From assembly GCA_001692895.1 (NCBI GenBank), contig KV748269.1:310001-374000 (forward strand): a stretch of DNA of 64,000 nt. Direction: 5' to 3'. Position numbers and translations under genes: made by a program. Of this stretch, positions 10,269 through 54,313 are shown in pieces. Under the pieces are notes generated by a model. It did not search any database. It was not told where the DNA came from and saw only the letters and a program-made list of their open reading frames with translations. Source of the stretch: Cenococcum geophilum 1.58. Taxonomy: Eukaryota > Ascomycota > Dothideomycetes > Gloniales > Gloniaceae. Each line of letters starts with the position of its first letter. Position 1 is the stretch's first letter.

Positions 10269-10963
10269 CCAGATAACTAGAAAATAAATACTAAAACAAT
10301 TTAATTAATTAATTAATTAATTTGGACTAAAGCCAATATTAATATAGGAACAATTAATTTTAATTCTAAAGCACTAGTTAAGCCTATATTGGCACCAATT
10401 TTAATATCTTAACGTCACTATATATAACGTTTTAACGTCACTAGAGTTACCAAATAACTACATTAAGATTACCCCTATAATAACAGCAGCGTCTAAAGCA
10501 CATTAATATAATTAAACAGCTTTAAAGATTTACCTTTATATCTACCTTAACTATAGATTAAAAGGATTTACCGTAAGTATAGATTAATTAACTGCTTTAA
10601 ATATAGATTAAAATACTATACCTAGATTAAACAATTTAGTAGAGCCTTTTATAAAGGATGCTAAACATCTACCTTAACTATAGATTAAAAAGATCTACCG
10701 TAAGTATAGATTAATTAACCACCTTAAATATAGATTAAATTACTATACCTAAATTAATTAATTTAGTAGAGCCTCCTATAAAGGATACTAAATAGTTACT
10801 AATTCTATATAGGACTATATCACTAACTCCTAATAGAATAGTACCTCTAGATCTACTAGCGTTAAATATTTTAAGGACTTTAAGACGATATTTTAAATAT
10901 AATTAAAGCAATTCCTAACTAGCCTATATTAGCACTAGTTATAATAACCGTAATATTACTAAG
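10269..10963. repeat. AT-rich spacer with a 127-base tandem duplication
   Basis: No gene seen. It contains a TTAA run near 10302-10320 and two adjacent copies of a roughly 127-base unit (starting 10541 and 10668) built round TCTACCTTAACTATAGATTAAA and ending near AAAGGATACTAAA. A short stretch near 10420-10450 (TAACGTCACTAGAGT) resembles the sequence just right of the family C element (17750-17790). The tract is RIPped. Confidence 0.6.
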
Positions 10964-19499: not shown

Positions 19500-21510
19500 A
19501 AATATAGCAACGGCCCTAGCGTTAGTAATTTAAAAGTATTAATTTAATTATAAGCTTGGCTCCTTAATGGCCGATAACGCTAGTAATAATAATAAGCTCT
19601 ACAACTACCTTTTATAAAGCCTATTAGTGGCTAAAAAGGAACAGCTTTAGTGCGTTAGCCATACTATTAACCTTATTATTAAGGCTTTAATATATGGCAA
19701 AGGCGTAAGCAAGCTTAAACGCTTAATAATTAGCGCAAGCAAGCACGTTAAATTTAATCTTATGCGGTAGAGAGGCCCCGTAGGTAAGGTTTATAATATT
19801 ATTAAATATATTATATAATTAATAAGACGCTATAAAGACTTTACTAAGAACTAGGCTAAGGCCTATATTAAGGACGAGCTCTTTAATTAAGTAGAGCTTC
19901 TACTTATTAAGGACAGAGGCGTTTAGTGGAATTTAACCTACTTTATACTCTACCGTGCCTACCTTCTTTATAAAGCAATTAATAAATATCTACTAGCTTA
20001 GAGGAAGCCCGCTAATAATAGCTACAACCTATTATAGGACGCGCTTACTAATAAAGATTAATAGTAACGTACCCGACCACTATGTGGCGAATACCACCAT
20101 GTGGCGAACCTACAATATCGCGGCGGTGTTAAGGGAATTGGTTTGGCCCTGCTTGTAGGCCTGGAGAGCTAGAATTAATCTGCCCTCTCCGTGTAATGCT
20201 TCTTGTTGTTGTGGTGTGGCCATTTCAATAGTAGTTGCAGACGCGTCGTGTTTTTGGTGGTGTTCGCCACATGGTGGTGTTCGCCACTTGGTGGTCGGGT
20301 ACGTTAAGTAGAGCAGCTTATTAAGATTCTAAAGCCTTTTATATTAGCCACTAAGCGTATAAAAGGCGACGCTAATAGTTCTAGTATTAAAGGCTTATAT
20401 AGCCCTCTATAGGAGTTAATTACTAATATAAAGCTACTTTATTAAATTCTCTAGTAAACTTAGTAGAGCCTTAAAAACAAATACAATTCCTTTCTTAAAT
20501 TAGGCGTTAATATAGCTATTTAAAAGATTAATAAATATTTTAATAAAATAAAGGCCGAGAGCCCTTACTATTTTACTACAGTAATCCTTTATTTACCTCT
20601 TAAACGCGCCTACTTTCGCAATAAGTGGAAATGGTAGCCCCTATAATAGAAGTACGCTAAGCAGTATATAGAGACTTTATTTAATAACTATATTAATAAG
20701 CAAGTAGATAAGGAAGATAAGGAACTAGCTAAACCACAATATAGGAAAGTTCCTTATAAATCCAATAATAATTTAGCTGATAAATATATATAGTCCTTAG
20801 TTATAGATAAAAGCCTTACTTTCTTAAAGCGCAATTAAAAGCGTATTAAGCTCGCTAGTAAAGCTTAACCGCTACTATAATATAGGCCTTAAGCTTATTA
20901 AGATTCGCTCTAATAATAGTAATAAGCGGAGTAATGTTGTTTCTAATTCTCTTAACTAGTAACTTAAAATTAGTTAAATCCTTTATTTAATACTTACTAA
21001 GATTACCCTTAATCTATTCTCTATACTAGTAATAAGCTCTATATATAAATAAGCCTTTAGCTAAGCTAAAAGGATTATTACTAATAAGTATAATTAACTA
21101 TTAGCCAATATAATTAAAGCAGATTAATATTAAAAATAGTAGTTAATTAAAGGCCTTTTATTAAGCAGTTTAATTAACTATATTAACTCTAATAAAGGTT
21201 TAACTATACCTTAGTTAATAAGCTTAGATATTAATCTTATTAGCTATAAGCTAACTATAGAGGTAGAAAAGCTAGCTTAGTAAGATATATTTAATAGAGC
21301 TTTATATTTAATTAAATCTAATATAGAAATAGAGCCTCCGGAGCCCTTACTAATGCCTTCTTTCTAACCTTACCACTAATATTACTACTAAATGTTTTAC
21401 CTTTTTAACCCTCTATAGGTATACAGGACGAGTTTAGCTATATTTAAATACTATATTAGGTAAATTAGGGCTAGATTTAATTAGGCAACGTTAATATTTG
21501 TATATAGAGA
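19500..21510 (+). mobile_element. hAT-superfamily DNA transposon relic
   Basis: A plus-strand transposase remnant. Conceptual reading gives CVSHTINLIIKALIYGK at about 19660, RGPVGKVYNIIKYII at about 19770, WNLTYFILYRAYLLYKAI at about 19930, LIKILKPFILATKRIKG at about 20312 and YYFTTVILYLPLKRAYFRNKWKW at about 20570. This order matches the central and C-terminal part of fungal hAT transposases (CxxH-type region, the W(N)STY motif and the LKPF(Y)xATK motif). Numerous stops of the RIP type interrupt it. The BED zinc finger and N-terminal catalytic part are not recognised, so the left end is uncertain. It is interrupted by a small MITE at 20067-20304, and it lies just upstream of a host pseudogene. 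Confidence 0.8.
20067..20304. mobile_element. 238-base MITE, TA target duplication, 43-base inverted ends
   Basis: Terminal inverted repeats of 43 bases (40 identical) begin ACGTACCCGACCAC and contain the motif GTGGCGAA twice per arm. TA lies on each side (20065-20066 and 20305-20306), as in Tc1/mariner/pogo-type elements. It carries no coding region. Its CpA dinucleotides are intact, unlike the hAT relic around it, so it inserted after that element was RIPped. It is probably a non-autonomous derivative of a Fot1/pogo-like transposon, judged from TA and TIR form only. Confidence 0.9.
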
Positions 21511-35199: not shown

Positions 35200-37457
35200 C
35201 TATCCCTTGCAACGTTGGTGTCCTACTGCAGGTGGCCCGTGCGGGAACACCAGAATCAGAGCTACGCAGAAGCTTCGCAGATAATATAGGTTAACTCAAT
35301 CATCAATTAATCAACCACAATGCCTTCCAATCGTGCCTTTCTTGATCCTGATATTGTCCAACCTACCAAATACATCGTTCCTCCAACTCGTGTAGCAAAA
35401 GAACTACCCCCGGAGCCTTGGCAGCTGCCTAAATTCGAACCCTTTGTTATTGACGATTACAACGCCCATGGCGAGCCAATCCTCCCCCTAAATACCAATA
35501 CAAGTGATCCAATGGCGCTATTCAATCTATTTTACACAGATGAGATAATGGACAAGCTTGTGGAGTGGACAAACGCGTATGCGGACGAACAGCAGAGCCT
35601 TGAGGATGAGGACGAGCTACAAACGCGTCGTGGATGGCTCCCAACATCCAGAAAGGAACTATACGCATACTTTGGTGTGCTAATTCATATAGGCATTACT
35701 ATTGAATCAGCCATCGAGGATTACTGGGGCGATTTAGAAGAGGATGGCTGCAGTCATATGGTGAAAAAATACATCTCGAAAGACCGCTTCCAGCAGCTTG
35801 ATCGTTACATTAGAGCTACCAAACCCCAGCCCCAAGACGACAATTCATCCAAATCAACCTTTAATCGTGTTAACGACCTTTCAGAGCACCTACGAGTCCT
35901 CTGCCGTAAGCTCTACAATCCTGGAGCTCACCTTGCTGTTAATGAGACAATTCAACGCTTTATGGGAAGGGCTAGTGAGATAGTCAATATTCCATCAAAA
36001 CCAACACCTGAAGGCTTCAAAATATGGGTTCTAGCTAATGAGGGCTATGTATTAGATTGGATCTATCACGCTAAAGGCAATAAAGGTCCTGTTGACCTAG
36101 ACTCCCACTTTACAGAGGTAGAAGGATTTAGCAATACACAAGCCGTCGTCCTTGATTTCCTCACACAGAAGCACGAGATTACTCAGCAGCGACTCTACCC
36201 TCCAGGAAAGCACATCGTGTGGCTCGATAACCTCTTTACCAGCGTTAAACTATTTCGAAGACTTCGTGAGCTTGGGGTTGGAGCGGCTGGAACAGTTAGA
36301 ACGGCGAAGACACAGAATAAGGAGCAAGGGCAGGATTCTGTGGATATATTGAAGGATTCCAAGGGCCGAAAAAGGAAGGAACCTCCAGAGCAAATTGATG
36401 TTAAGCTCTCAAAACTTAAGCTCGTGCATTCAGCCCAAATTCCATGGGGGACGCTCTACGGATCTACTTCAAAAGATCACCAGGTGATGGAGTTTGCTTA
36501 GAAGGACGCGAATGTAGTCCTTTTTATGAGTACTGTGCACGACGGTAAGCTCTATAAATTATTCTATATTGTAGACAGCCTCAACACCATGCTAAAACCG
36601 TGCTGACGTCATATATCGCCAGGTCAATCCTACATTGTAACTCAACGACGACGACCTGCAAAAACGGCCACAGGAGCCGCCCAAACCCGCAAGATCTTTA
36701 GCAATAACGTCCGCAAAGAGTTACCTATCCCTGACTTTATAGACGAGTATAATTGCTATATGTGTGGAGTGGATATTGCAGATCAGCTGCGGAGCTATTA
36801 TAACACACAGAGAGCGCACAGGAAGACTTGGAAGCCTCTATTCCACTTCCTACTCGATACCGTTGTTGGCAATTGCTATCTGCTATCATCTTATAGGCCA
36901 GTAGATCGATATTACTGCCGTGAGAAGTCGCATAAGCAATTTAGGAAGGACCTACGCAAAGCTCTCTTCCAGAACTCCACACGGGCTCGAAAACACCCCT
37001 CTCACGCCACACCTTCTAGGCCGTCAATTAACAAGATAATATGGGAACCTGTAGTGGAACATAAGCTTATCAAGCTTGGCGAACGGCAGCAGAATTGCTC
37101 TGGCTGTATTGAAGCTAGAAAGACGACTACAGAGCCTCATATGGCAAGAAGGAAGCCTTTGGCAGATCTCTCTATTAACACCACTCGGAAAGAGAGGACT
37201 AGTAAGGACTGGAAGCATCGCCAACGCGTGCCAAGAACTCAATTTGGGTGCAGTGTATGTAGAATTCCGTTCTGTAGGAAGGGCGATTGCTGGAGCGCCC
37301 ATATCAAACGAATTTCCACCAAAGATTGAGTGTAGATATCAAAATATATATATTTATTGAGCTTCATATTTCTCATCACGGCTCTAAGATTCTAACGATC
37401 TAATTGGCTGGAGCTTATCGATAAGAATAGGACACGAATCAACGTTGCAAGGGATAG
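35200..37457 (+). mobile_element. piggyBac-type DNA transposon
   Basis: A 2258-base element with perfect 18-base terminal inverted repeats CTATCCCTTGCAACGTTG (35200-35217, and its reverse complement at 37440-37457). A second block, GTGTCCTA, follows in both arms with a 4-base offset. The interior is a single transposase frame. A TTAA stands at 35192-35195, four bases outside the left arm, but no partner TTAA is seen on the right, so the usual piggyBac target duplication is not preserved. GC content is much higher than in the neighbouring repeats, which suggests a younger or low-copy insertion. Confidence 0.85.
35320..37329 (+). pseudogene. piggyBac transposase, inactivated
   Basis: One reading frame of 669 codons from ATG 35320 to the stop at 37327-37329, interrupted by just two in-frame stops: TAG at 36499-36501 (where homologues have tryptophan, FAWKD) and TGA at 36604-36606. 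Conserved parts are the N-terminal DDE core with LAVNETIQRFMGR (about 205), HIVWLDNLFTS (aspartate at about 303), the CGVDIADQLRSYY block (aspartate at 485) and a C-terminal cysteine-rich zinc-binding region (CSGC, CSVC, CRKGDC). The first catalytic position, aspartate in piggyBac transposases (VDEA), is asparagine here (codon AAT at 35941). The stops and this change are all explicable by single transitions. Both catalysis and translation should fail. Confidence 0.85.
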
Positions 37458-38040
37458 AATATCTATACACGATATAAATTTTATTAGTTTTTATTAATGT
37501 TTAGCCTACTAAATAGATTTAGTAGGGTGGGGGCCATGCGTTAGGTAGGGAGTCTCGGTATAGGTGGGCTACGCGGCCGATTTAGAAATTATATAAAGAA
37601 TATATAATATATAGATTAGTTAAATTAGGCTAAACGTTGAGCCTCTCTATAGTCGTATGCACGAGATTCGTACCTAATATGCGTGAAATCTACGTGCAAC
37701 ATATTAAAAACCACTACATTTTACATATGAAGTCTACAGATAAGACTATATATTTTGCATTTAAATTCTGCTCTATATACACCAAAAAACCTCCTAATAT
37801 GAACGCAAAATTTGATCTAATGCATTAATTTTAGATGCATATTGTAGAGCGTAAAGACCGTAGGGACCTAAGTTCAGGCGCAAAAATTGAGGATCCTGCA
37901 TGCCAAGGATTCTCATTCGTTTCGTAAACGACTAATACGCTAAATTTCGAAATTTTAGCCCTACGGAAATGCCCGGCTAAACCTTTCCTCAGCAACGCGG
38001 TGCACTTTGGGTCTCTTGACACTCCCATGAAATATCAATC
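37458..38040. other. Intergenic tract with inner and outer inverted-repeat copies and GARS promoter
   Basis: Holds the right copy of the inner repeat (about 37530-37562) and of the outer repeat (37862-37935), both inverted relative to 28.1-28.5 kb. A short perfect hairpin, CCTACTAAAT with ATTTAGTAGG, lies at about 37505-37527. The last 100 bases are GC-balanced and presumably carry the GARS promoter. A 63-codon frame at 37637-37828 shows no recognisable feature. Confidence 0.55.
37862..37935 (-). repeat. Inverted dispersed repeat, right copy
   Basis: The reverse complement contains CGAAACGAATGAGAATCC followed by TTGGCATG and ends TTTTTGCGCCTGAACTTAG. It matches 28086-28147 except for a few substitutions and a 5-base difference. 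Confidence 0.75.
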
Positions 38041-39463
38041 ATGTCAACAGAAAAGCTGCGGATACTCCTTGTGGGCAATGGCGGTCGAGAACATGCCATT
38101 GTCTGGAAATTGAATCAATCTCCCCGCATCGAGCACATCTATGTCGTTCCAGGAAACGGAGGAACAGCCGGGCTTTCCAATGTCACGAACATTGAAACAG
38201 TTAAGCCAGACGATTTTCCGGCCCTTGCAAAATTCGCCCAAGAAAAGAATGTCAACCTGCTTGTTCCAGGTCCGGAAGCACCTCTCGTGGCAGGCATCAT
38301 CGATTACTTCAAGCAGAACATCAAGGGAATGCGGTGCTTTGGTCCTTCGCAAGCAGCAGCACGCATGGAAGGCTCGAAGGCATTTTCTAAGGACTTCATG
38401 GAAAGAAATAATATACCGACAGCTGCATACCGCAATTTTAGCAATTTCGATGAGGCGCGGACTTATCTTAATTCGGTAGATCACGATGTGGTCATCAAAG
38501 CGAGCGGGTTAGCTGCGGGCAAAGGTGTCATCATTCCAAGTACGAAGCAGGAAGCGCAAACCGCACTAAAAGAAATCATGCTTGATAAGGAATTTGGTGC
38601 TGCAGGGGACGAGGTTGTTATTGAAGAATTCCTTCAGGGCGATGAGCTCAGTATCTTAAGCTTCAGTGACGGCACAGCAGTCCAGTCTCTTCCGCCTGCA
38701 CAGGATCACAAAAGGATACTTGATGGAGACCAAGGACCGAATACGGGAGGTATGGGGACGTACGCACCCACACGGATTGCGCCGCAGTCCGTTATTGATG
38801 AAATACATAAGACGATTCTGCAGCCAACCGTTGATAGCATGAAGAAAGAAGGTATGCACCTGCTTAATCACCTCAGTATGCTTATGCTGATTTATTTGAG
38901 GCTTCCCATTTAATGGCGTCCTCTTCACTGGGTTGATGATGACGAAGTCTGGGCCAAAAGTGCTCGAATACAATGTCCGATTTGGCGACCCGGAGACACA
39001 AAGTCTATTACCTCTCATAAATGCCGACCTTGCGGAAATTATGCTTGCATGTGCTGATGGCCAGCTAAGTGACGTGAGACTTGATGTCCTACCTAAATCT
39101 GCTGTGACAGTGGTTGTTGCGGCTAGTGGATACCCAGGATCATATGCGAAAGGCACTATTATAAAGCTTGATCCTGTGCCAAGTGGTGAGTGTCTTAATA
39201 TTGTGTGGTCTAGTAATTTCGCTTGCTGATAATTTTATCAAGACGTTGTTCTTTTTCACGCTGGCACCACACTCGTTGATGGTGTATTAAAAACATCCGG
39301 AGGTAGAGTTATTGCATCCACTGCCATAGCGAATACGTTAGAAGAAGCTGTGAGCAGAGCTTATTCTGGAGTCAATGCGATCCATTTCGAGGGAATGCAA
39401 TTCCGCAAAGACATTGCTGGACGAGCTTTTGCCGACCTGAATCAGACTGTCTTGCCACCCTGA
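38041..39463 (+). CDS. Phosphoribosylamine-glycine ligase (GARS), stand-alone form
   Basis: CDS join 38041-38851, 38901-39185, 39243-39463 gives 1317 bases, exactly 438 codons plus stop. Both introns (49 and 57 bases) are GT-AG with CTGAT-like branch sites. GARS joins glycine to 5-phosphoribosylamine using ATP, the second step of purine synthesis, in the cytosol. Seen are the N-terminal LLVGNGGREHAI, ATP-grasp elements VVIKASGLAAGKGVI and GPNTGGMGTYAPT, and the metal-binding EYNVRFGDPETQ. Length matches bacterial PurD (about 430). In fungi this domain is normally the N-terminal half of a GARS-AIRS fusion of about 800 residues; here the frame stops after DIAGRAFADLNQTVLPP, with no AIRS motif in the next kilobase. 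It is either a truncated duplicate or a genuine single-domain gene. The frame is clean, with no RIP-type stops. Confidence 0.88.
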
Positions 39464-40859: not shown

Positions 40860-41298
40860 TACCTAATTCTAGCTTTATCTATATAAAAAATCTCTTTAGC
40901 TTATATTTTTCTTCTATAACCCTTTTAATTAATAGCATCTTAATCTTCTCTCTCTTTATATCCTATAGCTACTTAATTAATACTAGTTAGTTATTATCTA
41001 TTTAAGCTATAAAGTCTTTAAGTTATACTATTATAACTACCTATAGGTTATTATCCTGTATACCAATATCTCCTCCTAATCCTAAGGTAGTTACTACCGT
41101 ATATAGCGTTATAGTTACTATTTTAGGTAGTATCTTATTAAATATTGTTCTACTATAACCTTAGTAGTAAATATATAACAAAGCCTTATAGCAGGTACTA
41201 CGGTAGACTTATTAATAGGCTAGGTATATAGTTAAATATAATAATAAGATCTAACTATAGAATAGGTGCCTAATAGTTAACTCTAATTATATTCTAAG
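40860..41298 (-). mobile_element. Partial LTR-element copy of family F, left piece
   Basis: 41030-41173 resembles 51010-51156, the start of the family F interior. 41174-41298 resembles the outer part of the family F LTR (TATAAC...CCTTATAGCAGGTACTACGGTAG onwards). The copy is split by the insertion at 41299-43447 and resumes at 43462. It is a broken fossil. Confidence 0.6.
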
Positions 41299-43809: not shown

Positions 43810-43814
43810 TAAAC

Positions 43815-44237
43815 TATAACGGAACCTTATAACAAGTACTACGGTAGGCTTATTATTAGGCTAGGTGTATAGGTAATGCAAATTAAAGTTAACAACGTAA
43901 TAATAACTGGTAGAGTGGTTGCCTAATAGATTAACTTTAATTATATTCTAAGAATTACTATAAGGAAGAAACTATCTAGGTAGGGATTAAGGGTCCTTAA
44001 ATATATAACCGTACTCCTATAAAATCCTCCTTATATATAATATACGTGTTATATATATTATATATACGTTCCCTTTATATACTGCGTATACTATATATAA
44101 CGTTATATAACCTTAATTACTATTCCTCGTTATATAGCTCTATTAGCTCTATCCTAGACCGTGCTTAAATTAACTAACTAGCTTCCTCCGATTCTTCTCT
44201 AAGTAGTTATAATATTATACTTAAAGCGTTTATAATA
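43815..44237 (-). repeat. 3' LTR of family F
   Basis: 423 bases, from TATAACGGAACC to GTTTATAATA. It matches the right LTR in the same order on both sides of the latter's insert. Confidence 0.85.
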
Positions 44238-46162
44238 CTATCTCCCTCCTCTTTATCTTTATCCTTAAAGATCCTAAATATCTCTAAGTTGTTTACTAGA
44301 GGTATAATATCCATTTAATTAATTTGGTTAATATTGTTACTTATTATACCTAAGGCAATTTCTTCTTTATAAGCGTAACGTCGTGCTTATACTATTGCTA
44401 CAATATTATCTCTTAGTAAGATTATACCGTTTCCATGTTCTCGTTATTTAAAAGAGGGGTTAGTTTATATTATATTAGTAAATCCATCCTTATAATAACT
44501 ATCCTCTTATTTAAAGTGCACTAAAGTAAATGTTTGTTTATCTTATAACGTTCGCTCTATCTCTAATACTAAGTATACGCAATCTATTACTCGTAATAGT
44601 TGTCTAGTTCTCTAATTAATTTGCCTTAGGGTTTTATATTTAATCTATTACTATATAGCTGGATAGTAAACTGTCTTAGGCTCTTACTAAGTTAGAATAT
44701 TCTTATAATATAGAGCAGAAGGCTCTTAAAGCCTATATCGCGGCGTCTACTTAATTACTCTATCTTAAGAAGGTTTATAAAAAGGTTTATTTTAAGGAGT
44801 AGAAACTTATAAAATAGGGTCTATAGGAACTTAGTAATAAAAGAATAGATTTTCCTTTAACTAAGAAGGAAACAGATTTAAGTAGTTTGGCAACTACTCT
44901 TCTTAGGTCCCCCTTAGGTGACTTATTCTTTAGCGATCCTTCTTTATTAATACTACCTAACCTAATTTCTTCTAATACTCCTATACCTTTCCTATAGCGT
45001 TCTTTAGATTCTCTAGTAGCTCCTAGGTAGTTTTATTATAGCCTATCTACCTTACCTTATACTATATTTTATTATTAACGTCCTTATAGCTAATAATCTT
45101 TAAAACTTACTATTTACCTTCTTCTTATTCTCTATATATGTCTGCTTTATAAACCGGTGGCTTAATATTCCTATATACTAGCTCTAATATCGCAATATAC
45201 TATATAGGGTAGATCTTTATTTTAGCTAGTAGGTCTAATTTAAATATAACCGGTAAAATCCTTTAAATAATTTTAAAAGATTTTAGTCTAACGTGGTCCA
45301 ACTTCTTACTTAGTTATTAACTCTTAAAATTTTTATATAGTAGCTATACTTTATCTCCCTCCTTAAAATCTAGTCCCTTAGATCTCTTAGTATTATAGTA
45401 CCTTTTTATTTTCTATTATACTATTTTTACTATTTCTATAAGGTATATATAAAGATTTATTAACGTCTTTATTCTTTCCTTAGCTATACTACTTATTTTT
45501 TTTACTACTATAGTAATAACGATATTCTTAGCTTATATCCATAATTTACCTTAAATAGTAATATGCCTATCCCTTCTTATAATATTGTATTATACGCGAA
45601 TTATATAACTAGTAATAATAATACCTAATTATTCTATGTGTAATTAATATAGTGTCTTAGATACTATTCTAGTGTTTAATTTAATCTTTTTATTTAACTG
45701 TCTATCTGCGGATAATTATAGTAGAAGTTACTACTCTAACTCCTTATTCCGCTAAGAATACTTCCTAAAATACTACTACGAATCTTAAATCCCTATCTAA
45801 TATAATCTTGCTTAGTGCCCTATATCTTATAAATACTTCTTTAATATAGATTCTAGTAATATCTTCTAGTAATATTTCTTCTATATATACTATAAAGTAT
45901 CCCCACTTTATAATCTTGTCCGGTAATAGAATCTCTTAACTTTAGTAACTTAATAATAAAGTCCTATAATATAACCTCTTATAGTCTTTCTAGTATTTTA
46001 ATAGGTTATAGCCCTCCGTATAGCTTATACCTTATTAGTTTATTCCTTTAGCAATCTAGATATTCTTTTAACTTTTTACGCTAAGCCCTAGATTCCATTA
46101 ATAATATACTCCTCTACTAGTATGCTAAAATCGCTAAAGACCGATAAAGAGGAGAAGGAGCT

Positions 46163-48129
46163 CTTGCTGCACCCGGCCCAAAAAGACTAAAACTAACCAA
46201 AAGAACCCTGAAAAACACCTAGAGAATCCCCCTAAGATGCATGCATCGTAGGGGAGGCACACGTTAAACGACGGTGGTTTGCACTCGCGTGCGTCCACTA
46301 AAACCACGCCTAACAATAGCCCTCTATAATAAGAACGGGCAAATACTACACTATAAAGCGGAAAGACCTCTATTAAGAAGGCATCTAATAAAATATAAAG
46401 CCTATTAGACGCGTTTAGTATCCGTAGTTACGGGGGAGTAACTATTAGCTATAATAAACTAATATAGCTAGTAGAATGGCTCCGCCAGTTTAACGAACCT
46501 TAGGCGCCCCTCTAGTAAACCCTTAATTAAATCCTCTAATGGCTAAGTAAAATTAAAATTAAATAAAATCTCTCCTTACCGGCGAACTATACCTAGGCCG
46601 CTATAGCTACGCGTTTATAATATAGGGAACCTACCCCCCTAAAGATAACATCTAGGTATATAATTATAATATAACTAAATATAGAAAAAGCAGAGGGGCT
46701 TAGGGGATAATTAAAAATAGAAGTCCTTACGGAGATTTATAAAGAGGTTTATAACGCTATTATAGTCTAATACCTTAGGAGTGGAGATATTAAAGTTACC
46801 CTAAAAGATTAACAGGTAAAGGAATAAGCTATTAGGGTAGGGGATAGGCTAGGAGAATATATTAGTATAAAAGTGCTCTATAAAGATTACCTAGTTAAAG
46901 TCCTAGTAGTTCCCCTAAGCCTTAGGGTAGAAAAGGGACGCTAGTAGGTAGATAATACAGCAACTATATATAAGATAGTAAAACAAATAGAACGCTTTAT
47001 ACTAGGACTTAAGATCACCTAAATCTAATAGCTTTAATAAGAAAATATAAACTAAATATATAATAAGAATAATAAAAGAATATAAGGGTCGCCAAAGACT
47101 TACTAGGGAAATACCAGTTAAACGCATAGCTCCCTTATTATTAGCACATATATACTAGAAATGTAAAAACTCCTTATTTAAAAAGGTATTATTATAAATA
47201 GCCTTATATATAACGCAAGGCTCTATAACTATAGACTCCGCCTAGAATAATGCTATTACTATATATAATAGGGGTACACCTAATCTACATGCGCAGTATA
47301 GGTATGCTACGGCCACTATATAGGCCCCTATAATATAAGACACTGCTTAAATTAAGACTAAATAAAATGCGTAAACTGCTACCAAAGCATATATAAGGCG
47401 TAGGAGAAAGAAGATTGCATTAAATACAGGAGACGGAAGGTAAGGGCTTAACAGCTACGGGAATAACTGCACGCTAGGTTATATAAATGAAAATAATAGG
47501 TAATAAGCTAGGGGGGCGCAGGTGCCTTTCTAGTGTTTTCTACCTTTAATACTAGGGGGCTAGGCTAGCTATCTTAAGCCTTAACGGGCTAGAAGTAACG
47601 CTGCGCGATATTACTAGACTGTATAGGGATATAAGGGAGAGGATGCCCTGTAGGAAGACCCTTATAGACAGCTATAGCAAGCTTAAGACCGGGATAATTA
47701 AGAATTAGACTTAACGCGGCAAATATAATATTTATAGCCAACTTTTAAAGGGTATATAGCTAACTAGTAAGAATAGGGGAAGAACTAGAGATAATAATAG
47801 ATTTAGATATAGAAGCACTAGTAGAAATATAAAATACGGGAATAAAAAGCTCTATATAAAATAAGTAGTAACTAGGGTATAGATACAAGAGATAGAAGTT
47901 TTAAATATTCTAAAGAAAATGGAAATAGAAGAAGTAAGGAATGATAAAGAGGCGAAGAACCCTCGCTGGGGGTCCGCTACCTATCCATTATATAGTATAA
48001 CTATGGTAATATAAACCACCATCTTATAAGGCCCTTACTAGATAGTTTAGACCTAGAAAAACACTATATCCTTATAATATAAGAGCCGTACTATAATACC
48101 TATATATAATTAATATACTGCCCCTATTC
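46163..48129 (+). mobile_element. LINE, Tad1-like, copy 2 (5' part only)
   Basis: Aligns with 28809-30787 of copy 1 from the AGGAGCTCTT start through the leader, ORF1 region and the first bases of ORF2, then stops abruptly after TAATATACTGCCCC. LINEs are usually truncated at the 5' end by incomplete reverse transcription; this copy lacks the 3' two thirds instead, so a later deletion or recombination is more likely than a short insertion. The body is RIPped, but the first 180 bases retain many CpA dinucleotides. It sits inside family F. Confidence 0.85.
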
Positions 48130-51100
48130 TCTTAACTACTACTAATAAGATATAGTTCCTTATTGCTCCACTATCTATTAATGCTTTAAACTATTAATCT
48201 TACTATTTAGCTTATAGATTTAGGTATTATCCTTAAATTTCTTTAAGGGTCTAAAACTCTACTACTAGTTCCCTTTAGTTCTGTAGGCCTCTACTTTTCC
48301 TAACTATTAGCTGCTTAATCCTGTTTATACTTAGTCCACTTTTAGCCAATACTTAGTTCGCTTTTTATCTTTAATATACTATAGATACGTATTCTCTAGG
48401 TATTCCTACCACTATTATCTATCTAAGTATTCTTCCGTAAGGAATCTTTCTAGCTAAAGTATTAAGTCCCCTAGGCTTTATACTTCTACTAGATACTAAC
48501 TATATATATACTTAGTGTTTTAGTATTTTACCTCGTCTAGTGCCTAATATATCCTTACTAGATACTTCTAGTTCTTATTTTTAGATGCTCTATATATATT
48601 ATATATATTATCCACATATATAATTTATGCCAACGTATAATATACTTAGTGTCTTAGGTTAACTCTTAGCTTATCTTTATCCTTAAGTTTAAACCTTTCT
48701 TATGTTAATTTAAGTGTTATAACTTCGTTTACAGGTACTAAGATTTATCTCTTATTTCTTTAGTTCTCTAATTGCTCCTTTAGATCTTTTAACATCATAA
48801 TTAAGGCTCCTTTAATATAACTTATAGCCTTTTCTATAATTGGGTGGTCTTAGACAATTTTCTTATCTAACTATATATAGAAATCTTTCCACTTATTATT
48901 GTGTCGTTGTTTATACCACTTTTAGTATAACCCTTTAAGTGTATATGGCTTATCCGTAAGGAAGTATCTTTTTATTACTACACTATAATAGCCTTTAGTA
49001 TATTGTTTTTTGAACCTAGTTAGAATCCCTAAATCCTTTTCTTATTCCAGTTTAGTAAGCTACTTAGCTTTTAATATGCCTATCCTAGGCCTATTGGCGA
49101 TTCTTTATATAGGTGCTCTGTCCCTTATATAGCCTAGTACGCTAGATTTCTTATCTAGTTTCTATTCTTACTATAAGGTAATTCTAGCCCTAAATTCCTT
49201 TATAGTTTCTTTCTTTTTGCGTCTTACGAGTAGATCTTTAAAGTCTTCTTACTTCTTAATCTTGTTAATAGTCCTTATTTATATCTTAAAGTCTTAGTTC
49301 TATAGGATTTTTAATCCTAAGCTTACTTCTATCTTAAGCCTTACTCCTACCTTAATCTAACTAGGCTTAGGTATTCTTATCTTATCTTAAAAGTCTTAAA
49401 TCTTACTTATCTCTTCTTAAGAATCTTATATTTATAGAAAGCTCTATCCTAAGCTTATTTATATATCTTTAAACTAAGCTATTACTATACTCTATCGGTT
49501 ACTATCCGTTATAGGTCCTTAAGCTTACCTTATCTTATCTTAAGAGTCTTAGTTATCTCTTATCTCGTCTTAAGAATCTTAAGCCTTTAGCCTTTTACCT
49601 TTATTAAGTGCCAAAGTAGTTCATTATCCTACTTCTCTTATATCTCGCGAAGCAATAGATATTATATCTAGTGGGTTTTTAATCCCTACTAATATTCCCT
49701 ATTCTATAGTAGAATTATCCTTTATCTCTTTTATAATATTTTTAAAGTCTATATACTCCTAGTAAGCTATCTTTATTACCTTATTATTATAGAATATTTT
49801 ACCTATATTAAATTTATTATCCTTAATATCTAATCTGCAAACTAGTTTATTAGTTCCTCTAAACTCTAATAATTTTGGCTCCTATAGCTAATAGCTTACA
49901 CTATACTTAGCATCTTTATAAATTTGGTATACATTATTATAATAAAACGCAAAACTTCTAATTAAATATTCTTTTATTCCTCGCAGTATATTATTATCCC
50001 TCTATATATATATATCTTCTACTAGTCTAGTTCCCTTTATTATATAGTAACTCTAACTATCTTTATAATCCCTTATAAAGTAACCTTATTTTCTATAATT
50101 TATATAAGCTCCATATTTAAACTATTAACTTTACTATAGAGTCCGCCTAAACGTCTTCTACTACTAAGATCCCTAGCTTAGCCTCTACTCCTTAGTCCTA
50201 TAATTACTAAATCCTTAACCTCTAAATTTTTATAGTTTCTTACTCTATCTCTTATAGGCTTCTTTAGTACTACTTAGGTCTATTAACTCTATACTATACT
50301 ATAGTTTCTAATTTAGCTTTAGTTATTATATACTTTACGCCTTATATAACTATAAAACTCTATCCTAGCCCCTCTTAGCCTATTCCCTTTAGTAGATCCA
50401 ATTATTAATCTTAATTATTTAATCTATTAACTCCTATAGGGTGTCCGTATCTTCTATTAGGATAATTATATCCTAAACTTTAGCCTTAAGTCCCTATTTA
50501 TACTGTGCTATAAGCGCCCTATTATTTTATTTAACTTATATAGCTAGCGTCTAGAACTATATTATATACTTAATTACTAAGGTTCTTTACATAATGTCTT
50601 AGAGTTTTTTTTCCGCCATGGTTACTGCCTTTAGGTCTCTAAATATTTATATAAGTTGCTCTATAAATCCTTCCTAGCTTAAGAATATAAACTATACCTT
50701 TCAATTAGTAGTCGTTATTCCGTTTGCCTATATTTTTATAAAGTAGGGCTTAAACCACTTAAGTATCCTTTCTAATAGGAATAGTTCTGCATACGCTATT
50801 TAATCTATAGGTATTAGCAGCTTTGCTCCTTCTTGCGTAACTTTAAAGTATATCTATATAAGAAATCCTTTAAGCTTTAATCTTTCTCCTAAGTACCTTT
50901 TAATTAATAGTAACTTAATCTTTACCGCTTCTATCCTATTAACCCTTTCTTCTAGCACCGTATTATTTATTATTAACTAGTTAACTATTTTTTATAACTA
51001 TCTAACTGTTATAGGTTGCTACAAGTTAGTATCTGCTATACTAGTATCGCTTCCTAACCTTAAGGTAGTTACCGCCGTTAATGGCGTTATGGTAGCTGCT

Positions 51101-51245
51101 TTTAGTAGTATATTATTTAACTTTCTATATTTAATACTGTAACTAGGTAGTAATTATATAACGGAACCTTATAGCAAGTACTATAGTAGGCTTATTATTA
51201 GGCTAGGTGTATAAGTAATGCAAATTAAAGTTAATAATATAATAA

Positions 51246-53974
51246 TTGACCCGAGGTACGAGTGGTCTATTATCTTCGGGTCCTGGATTTCAAACTCCGC
51301 CAAGCTAGCTTCTAATTGGTTAGAAACAAAACTGCGCGCGGTAATTTGTGGCAGAATCCACGTGACGAACTTCAAAACCTTAAGTTCTACCAAAGCTCTA
51401 GAAAAGCTCTGCACTGAGCTCTACTAAAGCCCTGTAAAACCTCTGCACGAAGCTCCGTACAAAGCTCTGTAAAAGCTCTACCAAAAGCTCTACCAAAGGC
51501 TTTGCAGCACCTCTGCCCACCCAGTATACTGGCCACTCAGTGAATGGAGCACACAGTGCGCAGTAGGGTCCAAGAGGGTCTCCCCCTTGAAGCTCTGCTC
51601 GAAGCCCTGCTTAAAGCTTTACTTAAAGCCCTATACGGAGCTCTAAAGCTCTACTAACACGCAGCACTAATATACTAGGAAGGTTCTGCAATCTGCCCAT
51701 ACGGTCAATCGCCGTACAATCGTCTCTACGAACGGCTCTACGAACGGCTCCACGAACGGCTTTACGAATGGCTCTACAAACGTCTACACGATCGCTCGTA
51801 CGAACGTCCATACAACTGCCCATGCGATCGTCTCTACAAACGTCTCTACAATTGATCACCCGTACGAGCGTCTGCACCCTACACGCCTACACGTGGCTCT
51901 ATAGAAGCTCTACACAAAGCTCTGCACAAAGCTCTACACAAAGCTCTACAAAGCTCTACTAAAAGCTCTACTAAAGTCTCTACTAAAGCCTCTGTAAGAG
52001 CTCTGCCCATACAGTAAATAGAGCATATAGTGTGCAGGGGGGTCCAAGGGGGTCTCCCCCTTGAAGCTCTGCTCGAAGCTCTACTCAAAGCTTTACTCAA
52101 AGCCCTATACAGAGCTCCAAAGCTCTACTAACTCGCAGTACTAATATACTAGGAAGGTTCTACAATCGGCCGTATAACCGCCCATATAATTAATCGCCGT
52201 ACAATCGTCTCTACGAACGGCTCTACGAACGGCTCTATAAACGTCTACACGATCGCCCGTACAAACGCCCGTATGAACGCCCATACAAACGATCAATTAA
52301 ACGTCCATATAATCAATCAATCAAGCGTCTATACAATTGCCTATACATCGTCTCTATAAACGTCTCTACAATTGATCGCCCGTACAAACGTCTGTACGCC
52401 TACATATAGCTCTATAGAAGATCTATACAAAGCTTTACACGAAGCTCTACACGAAGCTCTACAAAAGCTCTACCAACCACTTTACCAAAGCCTCTGCAAA
52501 AGCACGCAGTGCGCAGGGGGGGTCCAAGGGGGTCTCCCCCTTGAGCTTAAAGCTCTACTCGAAGCTCTACTCAAAGCTTAATACGGAACCCTAAAGCTCT
52601 ACTAACACGCAGCACTAATATACTAGGAAGGCTCTATAATCGTCTACACGAACGGCTCTACAAACGGCTCTACGAACGTCTACACAATCGCCTGTACGAA
52701 CGCCTATACAATTAATTAATTAATCAAACACCCATACAATCGATTAATCAAACGTCCATACAATTGCCTGTACAATCATCTCTACAAACGTCTCTGCAGT
52801 TAATCGCCCGTGCGAACGCCTGCATGTGGCTCTGCACAAGGCTCTGTACAAAGCTCTACCGAAGCTCTACACGAAGCTCTACCGAAGCTCTACACGAAGC
52901 TCTACCGAAGCTCTGGACAAAGCTCTACCAAAGCTCTGGACTAAGCTCTACCAAAGCTTTACACGAAGCTCTACCGAAGCTCTACACGAAGCTCTACCGA
53001 AGCTCTACCGAAGCTCTGCACAAAGCTCTACCAAAGCTCTGCACAAAGCTCTACCAAAGCTCTGGACAAAGCTCTACCGAAGCTCTACACGACGCTCTAC
53101 CAAAGCTCTGCACGAAGCTCCACCAAAGATCTGCACGAAGCTCTGCAAAAGCTCTACCAAACGCTCTACCAAAGCCTCTGCAAGAGCACGCAGTGCGCAG
53201 GGGGGGTCCAAGGGGGTCTCCCCCTTGAGCTCGAAGCTCTACCCGAAACTCTACTTAAAGCTTAATACGGAGCTCTAAATCTCTACTAACATACAGCACT
53301 GATATACTAGGAAGGCTCTATAATCGTCTACACAAACGGCTCTATAAACGGCTCTACGAACGTCTGCACGATCGCCCGTATAAATGCCCATATAATTAGT
53401 CGATTAATCGATTAATTGCCTATATAAACGCCTATACAAACGTCTCTACGAACGGCTCTACAAATGGCTCTATACACGGCTTTACTTACAGCTCTACAAA
53501 CGTCCATACCATTGATTAATTAATTAATTGCCTACACAAACGCCCGTACGAACGATCAATTAAACGCCCATATAATTGCCTATACAATCGTCTCTACAAA
53601 TATCTCTGCAATTAATCGCCAGAACAAACGGCTGCACGTCTGCACGTAGCTCTGCGCAAGGCTCTGTACAAAGCTCCGCACGAGGCTCTACTAAAGCTCT
53701 GCACGAGGCTCTACCAAAGGTCTATACGAGGCTCTACCAAAGGTCTATACAAGGCTCTATTAAAGCTCTACACAAGGCTCTACCCAAAGCTTACCCCCTA
53801 CTGCAAAGCACGACGGGGGTATAGGATTTACGAAACAAATCTATATCTACTAGTATATATTAATGAGGCTCTATACAATAAGGCTCTAAATTAAAGCTTT
53901 GTATTAATTAATCGGCTTATTAATTATAAAGTCGGGTCAAAATTTTCGTTGGGGGGTACCAACGATCCGCATGT
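51246..53974 (+). mobile_element. Helitron/Helentron-like non-autonomous element carrying a satellite
   Basis: A 2729-base insert located exactly by comparison with the uninterrupted sister LTR. It lies between A and T of AATAATAACT, with no target-site duplication. It begins TTGACCCGA; the exact reverse complement TCGGGTCAA lies at 53932-53940, 34 bases before the right end. Between that arm and the end stands a hairpin, CGTTGG-GGGGTA-CCAACG (53947-53964), whose base is 10 bases from the end. An asymmetric inverted repeat, 3' hairpin, A/T insertion and lack of duplication match Helitron-class geometry; Helentron relatives often carry central tandem arrays. Against this, the ends read TT and ATGT rather than TC and CTRR, and no Rep/helicase is encoded. 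The insert is un-RIPped while its host LTR is RIPped. Confidence 0.5.
51410..53815 (+). repeat. Two-level satellite: 11/12-base motif in about 475-685-base macro-units
   Basis: The inner unit is GAAGCTCTACC or GAAGCTCTACAC (11 or 12 bases, often alternating), densest at 52830-53170. Related GCTCTAC and CGTCTACACGA/CGTACGAACG runs fill the rest. Macro-units are marked by AATATACTAGGAAGG (about 51669, 52143, 52618, 53302) and by the palindrome CAAGGGGGTCTCCCCCTTG (52045, 52525, 53209; a one-base variant at 51571). Spacings of the palindrome are 474, 480 and 684 bases; the last unit is longer because the 11/12-base array expanded there. A degenerate fifth unit ends near 53815. Long stop-free frames (for example 52764-53228 and 52826-53278) overlap in different phases and are by-products of the repeat. 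Confidence 0.85.
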
Positions 53975-54313
53975 TAACTAGTAGAGTAGTTGCCTAATAG
54001 ATTAACTCTAATTATATTCTAAGAATTACTATAAGGAAGAAACTATCTAGGTAGGAATTAAGGGTCCTTAAATACATAACCGTACTTCTATAAAATCCTC
54101 CTTATATATAATATACATATTATACGTATTATACGTACGTTCCCTTCATATACTACGTACACTGCGTATAACGTCATGTGACCTCGGTTACCATTCCTCG
54201 TCACATAGCTCTATCGGCTCTATCCTAGACCGTGCTTAAATTAACCAACTAGCTTCCTCCGACTCTTCTCTAAGTAGTCGTAATATTGTACTTAAAGCGT
54301 CCGTAATATAAAC

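Follow-up and report, generated by a model that had tools for sequence, protein, structure and literature searches.

A minisatellite-filled insert in a retrotransposon LTR, probably a non-autonomous Helitron2-type element

One of the two LTRs of a retrotransposon in the 64-kb window, the whole stretch of DNA that was analysed, is interrupted by 2729 bases of repetitive DNA. What this insert is, and how it came to lie in the LTR, are the questions raised by this locus. Judging by the sequence of the single copy examined, the insert is probably (roughly 80%) a rolling-circle transposon, non-autonomous and of the Helitron2 kind (Helitron-like group 2, Helentron-like). The coordinates of its features are collected in Table 1.

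Table 1. Positions of the insert, its parts and its host retrotransposon in the window
Feature	Positions	Strand	Basis or detail
Whole insert, probable non-autonomous Helitron2-type element	51246-53974 (or 51247-53975, one ambiguous T)	+	Gapless joined flanks vs sister LTR
5' asymmetric terminal inverted repeat TTGACCCGA	51246-51254	+	9 nt, 0 bp from edge if insertion is between A and T
TCGGGTC, 5' hairpin partner of 51248-51254	51276-51282	+	7 bp, loop 21 nt
Central block, minisatellite arrays (12 bp and 23/24 bp) grouped into higher-order units	51382-53791	+	TRF rows, unit alignment
Hairpin box, unit 1	51571-51589	+	One mismatch to CAAGGGGGTCTCCCCCTTG
Hairpin box, unit 2	52045-52063	+	Exact CAAGGGGGTCTCCCCCTTG
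Hairpin box, unit 3	52525-52543	+	Exact CAAGGGGGTCTCCCCCTTG
Hairpin box, unit 4	53209-53227	+	Exact CAAGGGGGTCTCCCCCTTG
3' subterminal inverted-repeat copy TCGGGTCAA	53932-53940	+	34 nt from right edge
3' hairpin TCGTTGG/CCAACGA	53946-53965	+	Stem 53946-53952/53959-53965, 7 bp, loop GGGGTA, 9 nt from edge
Host LTR retrotransposon	43815-54308		Target duplication TAAAC, 5 bp
TAAAC, left copy of host target duplication	43810-43814	.
TAAAC, right copy of host target duplication	54309-54313	.
Sister LTR, uninterrupted (empty site)	43815-44237	.	Gapless match to joined flanks
Interrupted LTR, part 1	51157-51245	.	Gapless match to sister LTR
Interrupted LTR, part 2	53975-54308	.	Gapless match to sister LTR

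Edges of the insert and the empty site

The edges of the insert were set by comparison with the sister LTR. The TAAAC duplication that brackets the retrotransposon proves the two LTRs to be a pair. When the flanks of the insert are joined, they match the sister LTR over 423 positions with 0 gaps, and the 44 differences between the two LTRs are all transitions, with 0 transversions. This gapless collinearity bears out the original prediction that the sister LTR delimits the insert to the base, except for one T that can be assigned to either side. The same DNA can be read as TAATAA^TTGACC...GCATGT^TAAC or as TAATAAT^TGACC...GCATGTT^AAC, where the caret marks the edge; the first of these two equivalent parses corresponds to the predicted insertion between A and T. 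Since only one of the two LTRs carries the insert, the insertion occurred later than the integration of the retrotransposon. A pyrimidine tract adjoining the left LTR suggests a minus-strand orientation of the retrotransposon. Where the two LTRs differ (44 sites), C or G is kept 31 times in the interrupted LTR and 13 times in the sister, showing that the sister is the more decayed. A fragment related to the LTR and its adjacent interior, which does not have the insert, is found at 41027-41298 and ends abruptly at G+C-richer sequence.

The absence of a target duplication, also predicted, holds at this one site, as the sister LTR is collinear across it with no gain and no loss. TAA is found on either side of the insert. 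However, three consecutive TAA are common to the joined flanks, the sister LTR and the related copy near 41240, and therefore TAA is not a target duplication, barring an independent gain of a unit in the sister. This bears on whether the insert could instead be a PIF/Harbinger-type MITE, moved by cut and paste, that made a 3-bp duplication of TAA and has a right end exceeding the left by 34 bp. PIF/Harbinger elements duplicate a 3-bp TWA target, so TAA on both flanks, together with the presence of inverted repeats, is what such a MITE would show. We consider it improbable, since the joined flanks and the sister LTR are equal in length with three TAA each, the third related copy has the same number, and an independent TAA gain in the sister LTR would be needed. 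Also, the repeats are asymmetric (0 vs 34 nt from the edges) and each is linked to a hairpin.

The empty site, TAATAATAACTGG, has no TT, and so the TT or T-rich target of Helentron and HINE elements is absent at this one site in mutation-decayed DNA. The second parse reads TAAT^A, which has the form of the TNAT^A target of FoHeli1/2, but it is one of two parses and such a match arises easily by chance in AT-rich DNA.

Terminal repeats and hairpins

The original prediction placed an inverted repeat at the start of the insert and its partner 34 bases from the other end. Both are there, and the repeat is 9 nt long. No exact match other than these two copies exists in the window; allowing one mismatch at most gives 6 matches, with 5.4 expected. 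A 3' hairpin had also been predicted and is present, but its stem has 7 bp rather than 6, and it ends 9 nt before the edge rather than 10. It begins 5 nt downstream of the 3' repeat, and this order, repeat and then hairpin, is the one known from Helitron2. Earlier unnoticed was a second partner of the 5' repeat, the TCGGGTC listed in Table 1, with which it makes a 5' hairpin. The 5' repeat is able to pair in two ways, either with this adjacent partner or with its distant 3' copy. The 5' hairpin is present in the centroid fold, with an unremarkable folding energy (29 of 200 shuffles at least equal), while the folding energy of the 3' end is unusual (4 of 200).

The frequency of these end features by chance was estimated with thresholds that were chosen post hoc, at or slightly under the observed values. 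Among 20,000 mononucleotide shuffles of both ends, the 9-nt repeat appeared 15 times, a 5' repeat of at least 7 appeared 135 times and a stem of at least 6 appeared 931 times; the three features never appeared jointly (0/20,000). Real controls with the same spacing, taken from the window, had the 9-nt repeat in 214 of 55,813 cases and the three features jointly, with a stem of at least 7, in 6 of 55,813. These 6 are two clusters of three neighbouring, overlapping positions each, and their repeats, TTAATAACG and TTATTTTATA, are AT-rich, unlike the GC-rich letters of the insert's repeat. With random pairs of real sequence, all three features coincided in 4 of 300,000. A count of the consensus motif was too loose to inform, giving 165 matches in the insert and 104 in positions 1-51245.

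These controls weigh on another explanation, in which break repair captured satellite or extrachromosomal circular DNA within the LTR and the terminal repeats are due to chance. A repetitive, non-coding body and a single known copy would agree with this, and end joining requires no target duplication. It is nevertheless as improbable as the MITE, because the three terminal features are jointly much rarer than chance and are located at edges that the sister LTR sets independently. In addition, the junctions are clean and the arrays stop short of the edges, leaving a TRF-free left margin of about 136 bp and a right one of 183 bp.

The termini were correctly said to differ from the canonical TC...CTRR, as the insert starts with TTGA or TGAC and ends with ATGT or TGTT, depending on the parse. 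A canonical Helitron1 derivative would have a 3' hairpin near its end and an insertion between A and T, as in one parse, but it is very improbable here, since neither parse has a TC start or a CTRR end and Helitron1 has neither a terminal inverted repeat nor a 5' hairpin (PMC3627910).

The minisatellite body and its coding content

Between its ends, the insert was predicted to be a giant satellite. This was overstated, as what is observed is a 2.4-kb block of minisatellites, with units of 12 bp and 23/24 bp centred on CTCTAC. The TRF rows, combined by hand into a union, cover 1444 of the 2729 bases (53%). The block is organized into four diverged higher-order units with 72-82% identity, each opened by a hairpin box, and the boxes are spaced 474, 480 and 684 bp apart.

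Differences between the units are enriched at C before A (76 of 153 C positions) and at G after T (43 of 71) and are low at C before T (20 of 270) and G after G (5 of 65), in counts that pool six overlapping pairwise comparisons. We take this CpA/TpG bias to be the pattern of repeat-induced point mutation (RIP). The G+C content of the insert is 46% compared to 30% for the surrounding retrotransposon and, therefore, the insert is much less decayed. It may have arrived late, or its diverged units may have escaped. A CpA context for repeat-induced point mutation is also given in PMC5148889. GC skew is negative in every 100-base bin across 51346-53845 and positive at the right end, so the plus strand is C-rich. 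Whole units differ from one another by 14-40 transversions per 427-490 columns, compared to 0 of 423 between the LTRs, although the alignment within the arrays is doubtful. The well-aligned box and next module have 1-3 transversions per 117-123 columns (p 0.01-0.23, six overlapping comparisons). These values are no more than suggestive of an array that had diverged earlier than its landing in the LTR.

All insert ORFs of at least 85 aa except 52945-53265 were scanned, five out of six, and none of the five had a Pfam match above the cut-off. Below the cut-off, two ORFs matched seven families each, one matched a single family and two matched none; we read these weak matches as repeat artefacts. 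Rfam gave one sub-threshold match, mir-266, at 22.1 against a cut-off of 80. No tRNA was found within the window with bacterial settings. No Rep or helicase domain was detected in the 20 ORFs scanned out of 69 of at least 85 aa in the window. Since the scanned ORFs hardly cover the AT-rich blocks, a decayed Rep-helicase could have escaped detection.

BLAST of the insert against the rest of the 64-kb window (E 1e-3) found no second copy. Pattern scans for relatives gave one match in viral_contigs and 0 in genome_contigs, but both collections are of viral and prokaryotic DNA, and a miss there carries little weight. The one match, L001, was identical in the 17 specified bases and divergent over the 201 bases read and is, therefore, probably due to chance. 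A literature search with the repeat letters and Helitron returned only one unrelated aphid paper. Among the literature matches listed, none was a fungal Helitron whose body consists of tandem repeats, which is weak evidence of absence.

Elsewhere in the window, AT-rich blocks show RIP-like dinucleotides and there are genes of fungal type, which together suggest that the DNA comes from a filamentous ascomycete. An AT-rich block holds a 127-bp unit in two tandem copies (10540-10792). A MITE-like palindromic element of 238 bp lies at 20067-20304, with the ends ACGTACCCGACCA...TGGTCGGGTACGT, TA on either side and 17-bp repeats in both arms; its ACGTA start resembles that of Fot1/pogo elements. At 35311-37329, two ORF pieces make up a transposase of the piggyBac type (Pfam DDE_Tnp_1_7), which does not show the RIP-like bias in dinucleotides seen in the adjacent repeats. 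The ORF at 38020-38913 has GARS_N and GARS_A domains only, which points to introns or a truncated gene.

Identity, proposed mechanism and comparison with known systems

The Helitron2 reading draws on several lines of evidence. The three terminal features are in the published order and spacing and are jointly rare in the controls, and the empty site is gapless with no target duplication. The body is made of repeats without a recognised protein, with central tandem repeats as in HINE/DINE-1 and oyster elements, and one target parse agrees with FoHeli1/2. Counting against this reading are the single copy, the lack of a Rep-helicase among the scanned window ORFs, the unremarkable energy of the 5' hairpin and the distance of the 3' repeat, which at 34 nt is slightly beyond the 20-30 of Helitron2 and inside the 20-40 of FoHeli elements. 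The original prediction of a Helitron/Helentron-like element stands as a rolling-circle, Helitron2/Helentron-like reading, given the ends, the 5' hairpin, the empty site and the repeat body without recognisable coding. In the strict sense the label Helentron is unproven, given the site without TT.

If the insert moved as a Helitron2-type element, a Rep-helicase encoded elsewhere in the genome by an autonomous relative would have nicked one strand at the element's end, and the nicked strand would have been displaced by rolling-circle replication. Pairing of the two inverted repeats, along with the 3' hairpin, could have served as the stop signal. The displaced strand would then have been joined into the AT-rich target without duplication, possibly via a circle. 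The repeat body was probably passive cargo that was copied en bloc, after earlier growth that may have occurred through slippage or unequal exchange.

More tentatively, and with somewhat less than even odds, the insert could represent a fungal Helitron2 family whose body is a higher-order minisatellite. Its rolling-circle moves would disperse satellite arrays in a genome with RIP-like mutation, parallel to DINE-1 and the oyster elements, and the box in each unit may pace amplification during strand displacement. If this family exists, satellite-carrying Helentron-like elements, known in animals, would also occur in what is probably a filamentous fungus, and repeat arrays would have a mobile carrier in a genome with C-to-T decay of repeats. 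Detectors based on TC...CTRR would miss the insert.

The ends of Helitron2 are defined by an asymmetric inverted repeat, a 5' hairpin that incorporates the 5' copy and a 3' hairpin that follows the 3' copy (Bao and Jurka 2013, PMC3627910). The 5' repeat is 0-2 bp from the end, the 3' repeat is about 20-30 nt from the edge and there is a 5' T. The insert has the asymmetric repeat at its 5' edge, a 5' hairpin formed from the repeat, a 3' copy followed by a 3' hairpin and a 5' T, and it resembles full-length Helitron-1N1/N2_CRe copies in having no target duplication (PMC3627910). It differs in the more distant 3' repeat and in its target, which is not TTTT^T/C (PMC3627910). Bao and Jurka proposed that a switch in the pairing of the 5' repeat between its neighbour and its distant copy is the stop signal for rolling-circle replication of Helitron2 (PMC3627910).

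The Helitrons of fungi are for the most part considered non-canonical and poorly sampled (PMC5148889). The insert shares with FoHeli1-5 and FoHeliNA1/2 a filamentous fungal host (a probable one for the insert), asymmetric repeats (the FoHeli 3' copy lying some 20-40 bp inside the end), hairpins and the lack of a target duplication, and short non-autonomous forms also exist among the FoHeli elements of Fusarium oxysporum (PMC5148889). The preferred target of FoHeli1/2 and of Chaetomium elements is TNAT^A, although the legend of Fig. 2 has TNAT^T, and a circular intermediate has been reported for FoHeli1 (PMC5148889). FoHeli3-5 start with TGCCT and end with CTCCTGT (PMC5148889); because they have both, a TG start with a TGT end is not new in fungi. 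The termini, predicted to be unusual and possibly those of an undescribed family, are thus outside TC...CTRR but less odd than claimed, as Fusarium Helitrons have TG...TGT ends and a TNAT^A target. The repeats themselves are different sequences (TCAGCCGAAGGCTG and TGCCT in FoHeli, TTGACCCGA in the insert), FoHeli3-5 do not have the 3' hairpin of the insert, and the available description of FoHeliNA1/2 contains no tandem-repeat body of the kind found here (PMC5148889).

Helentrons target TT and have autonomous partners with an endonuclease (PMC4067079, PMC5148889). HINE/DINE-1 elements are, like the insert, non-coding, with subterminal inverted repeats, a 3' palindrome and no target modification, and central tandem repeats are frequent in them, though not universal (PMC4067079). 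The inverted repeat of DINE-1 has its 5' side nested in the 5' subterminal repeat, as in the 5' hairpin of the insert (PMC4067079). Their target is T-rich or TT, whereas that of the insert has no TT, and the likeness described here concerns layout (PMC4067079). Cg_HINE of the Pacific oyster also has Helentron-type ends around satellite-like arrays, with monomers mostly of 140-180 bp compared to the 12 and 23/24 bp of the insert, whose higher-order units measure about 0.47-0.68 kb (PMC7492417). In its layout, the insert looks like a new example of an arrangement previously described in flies, mites and oysters.
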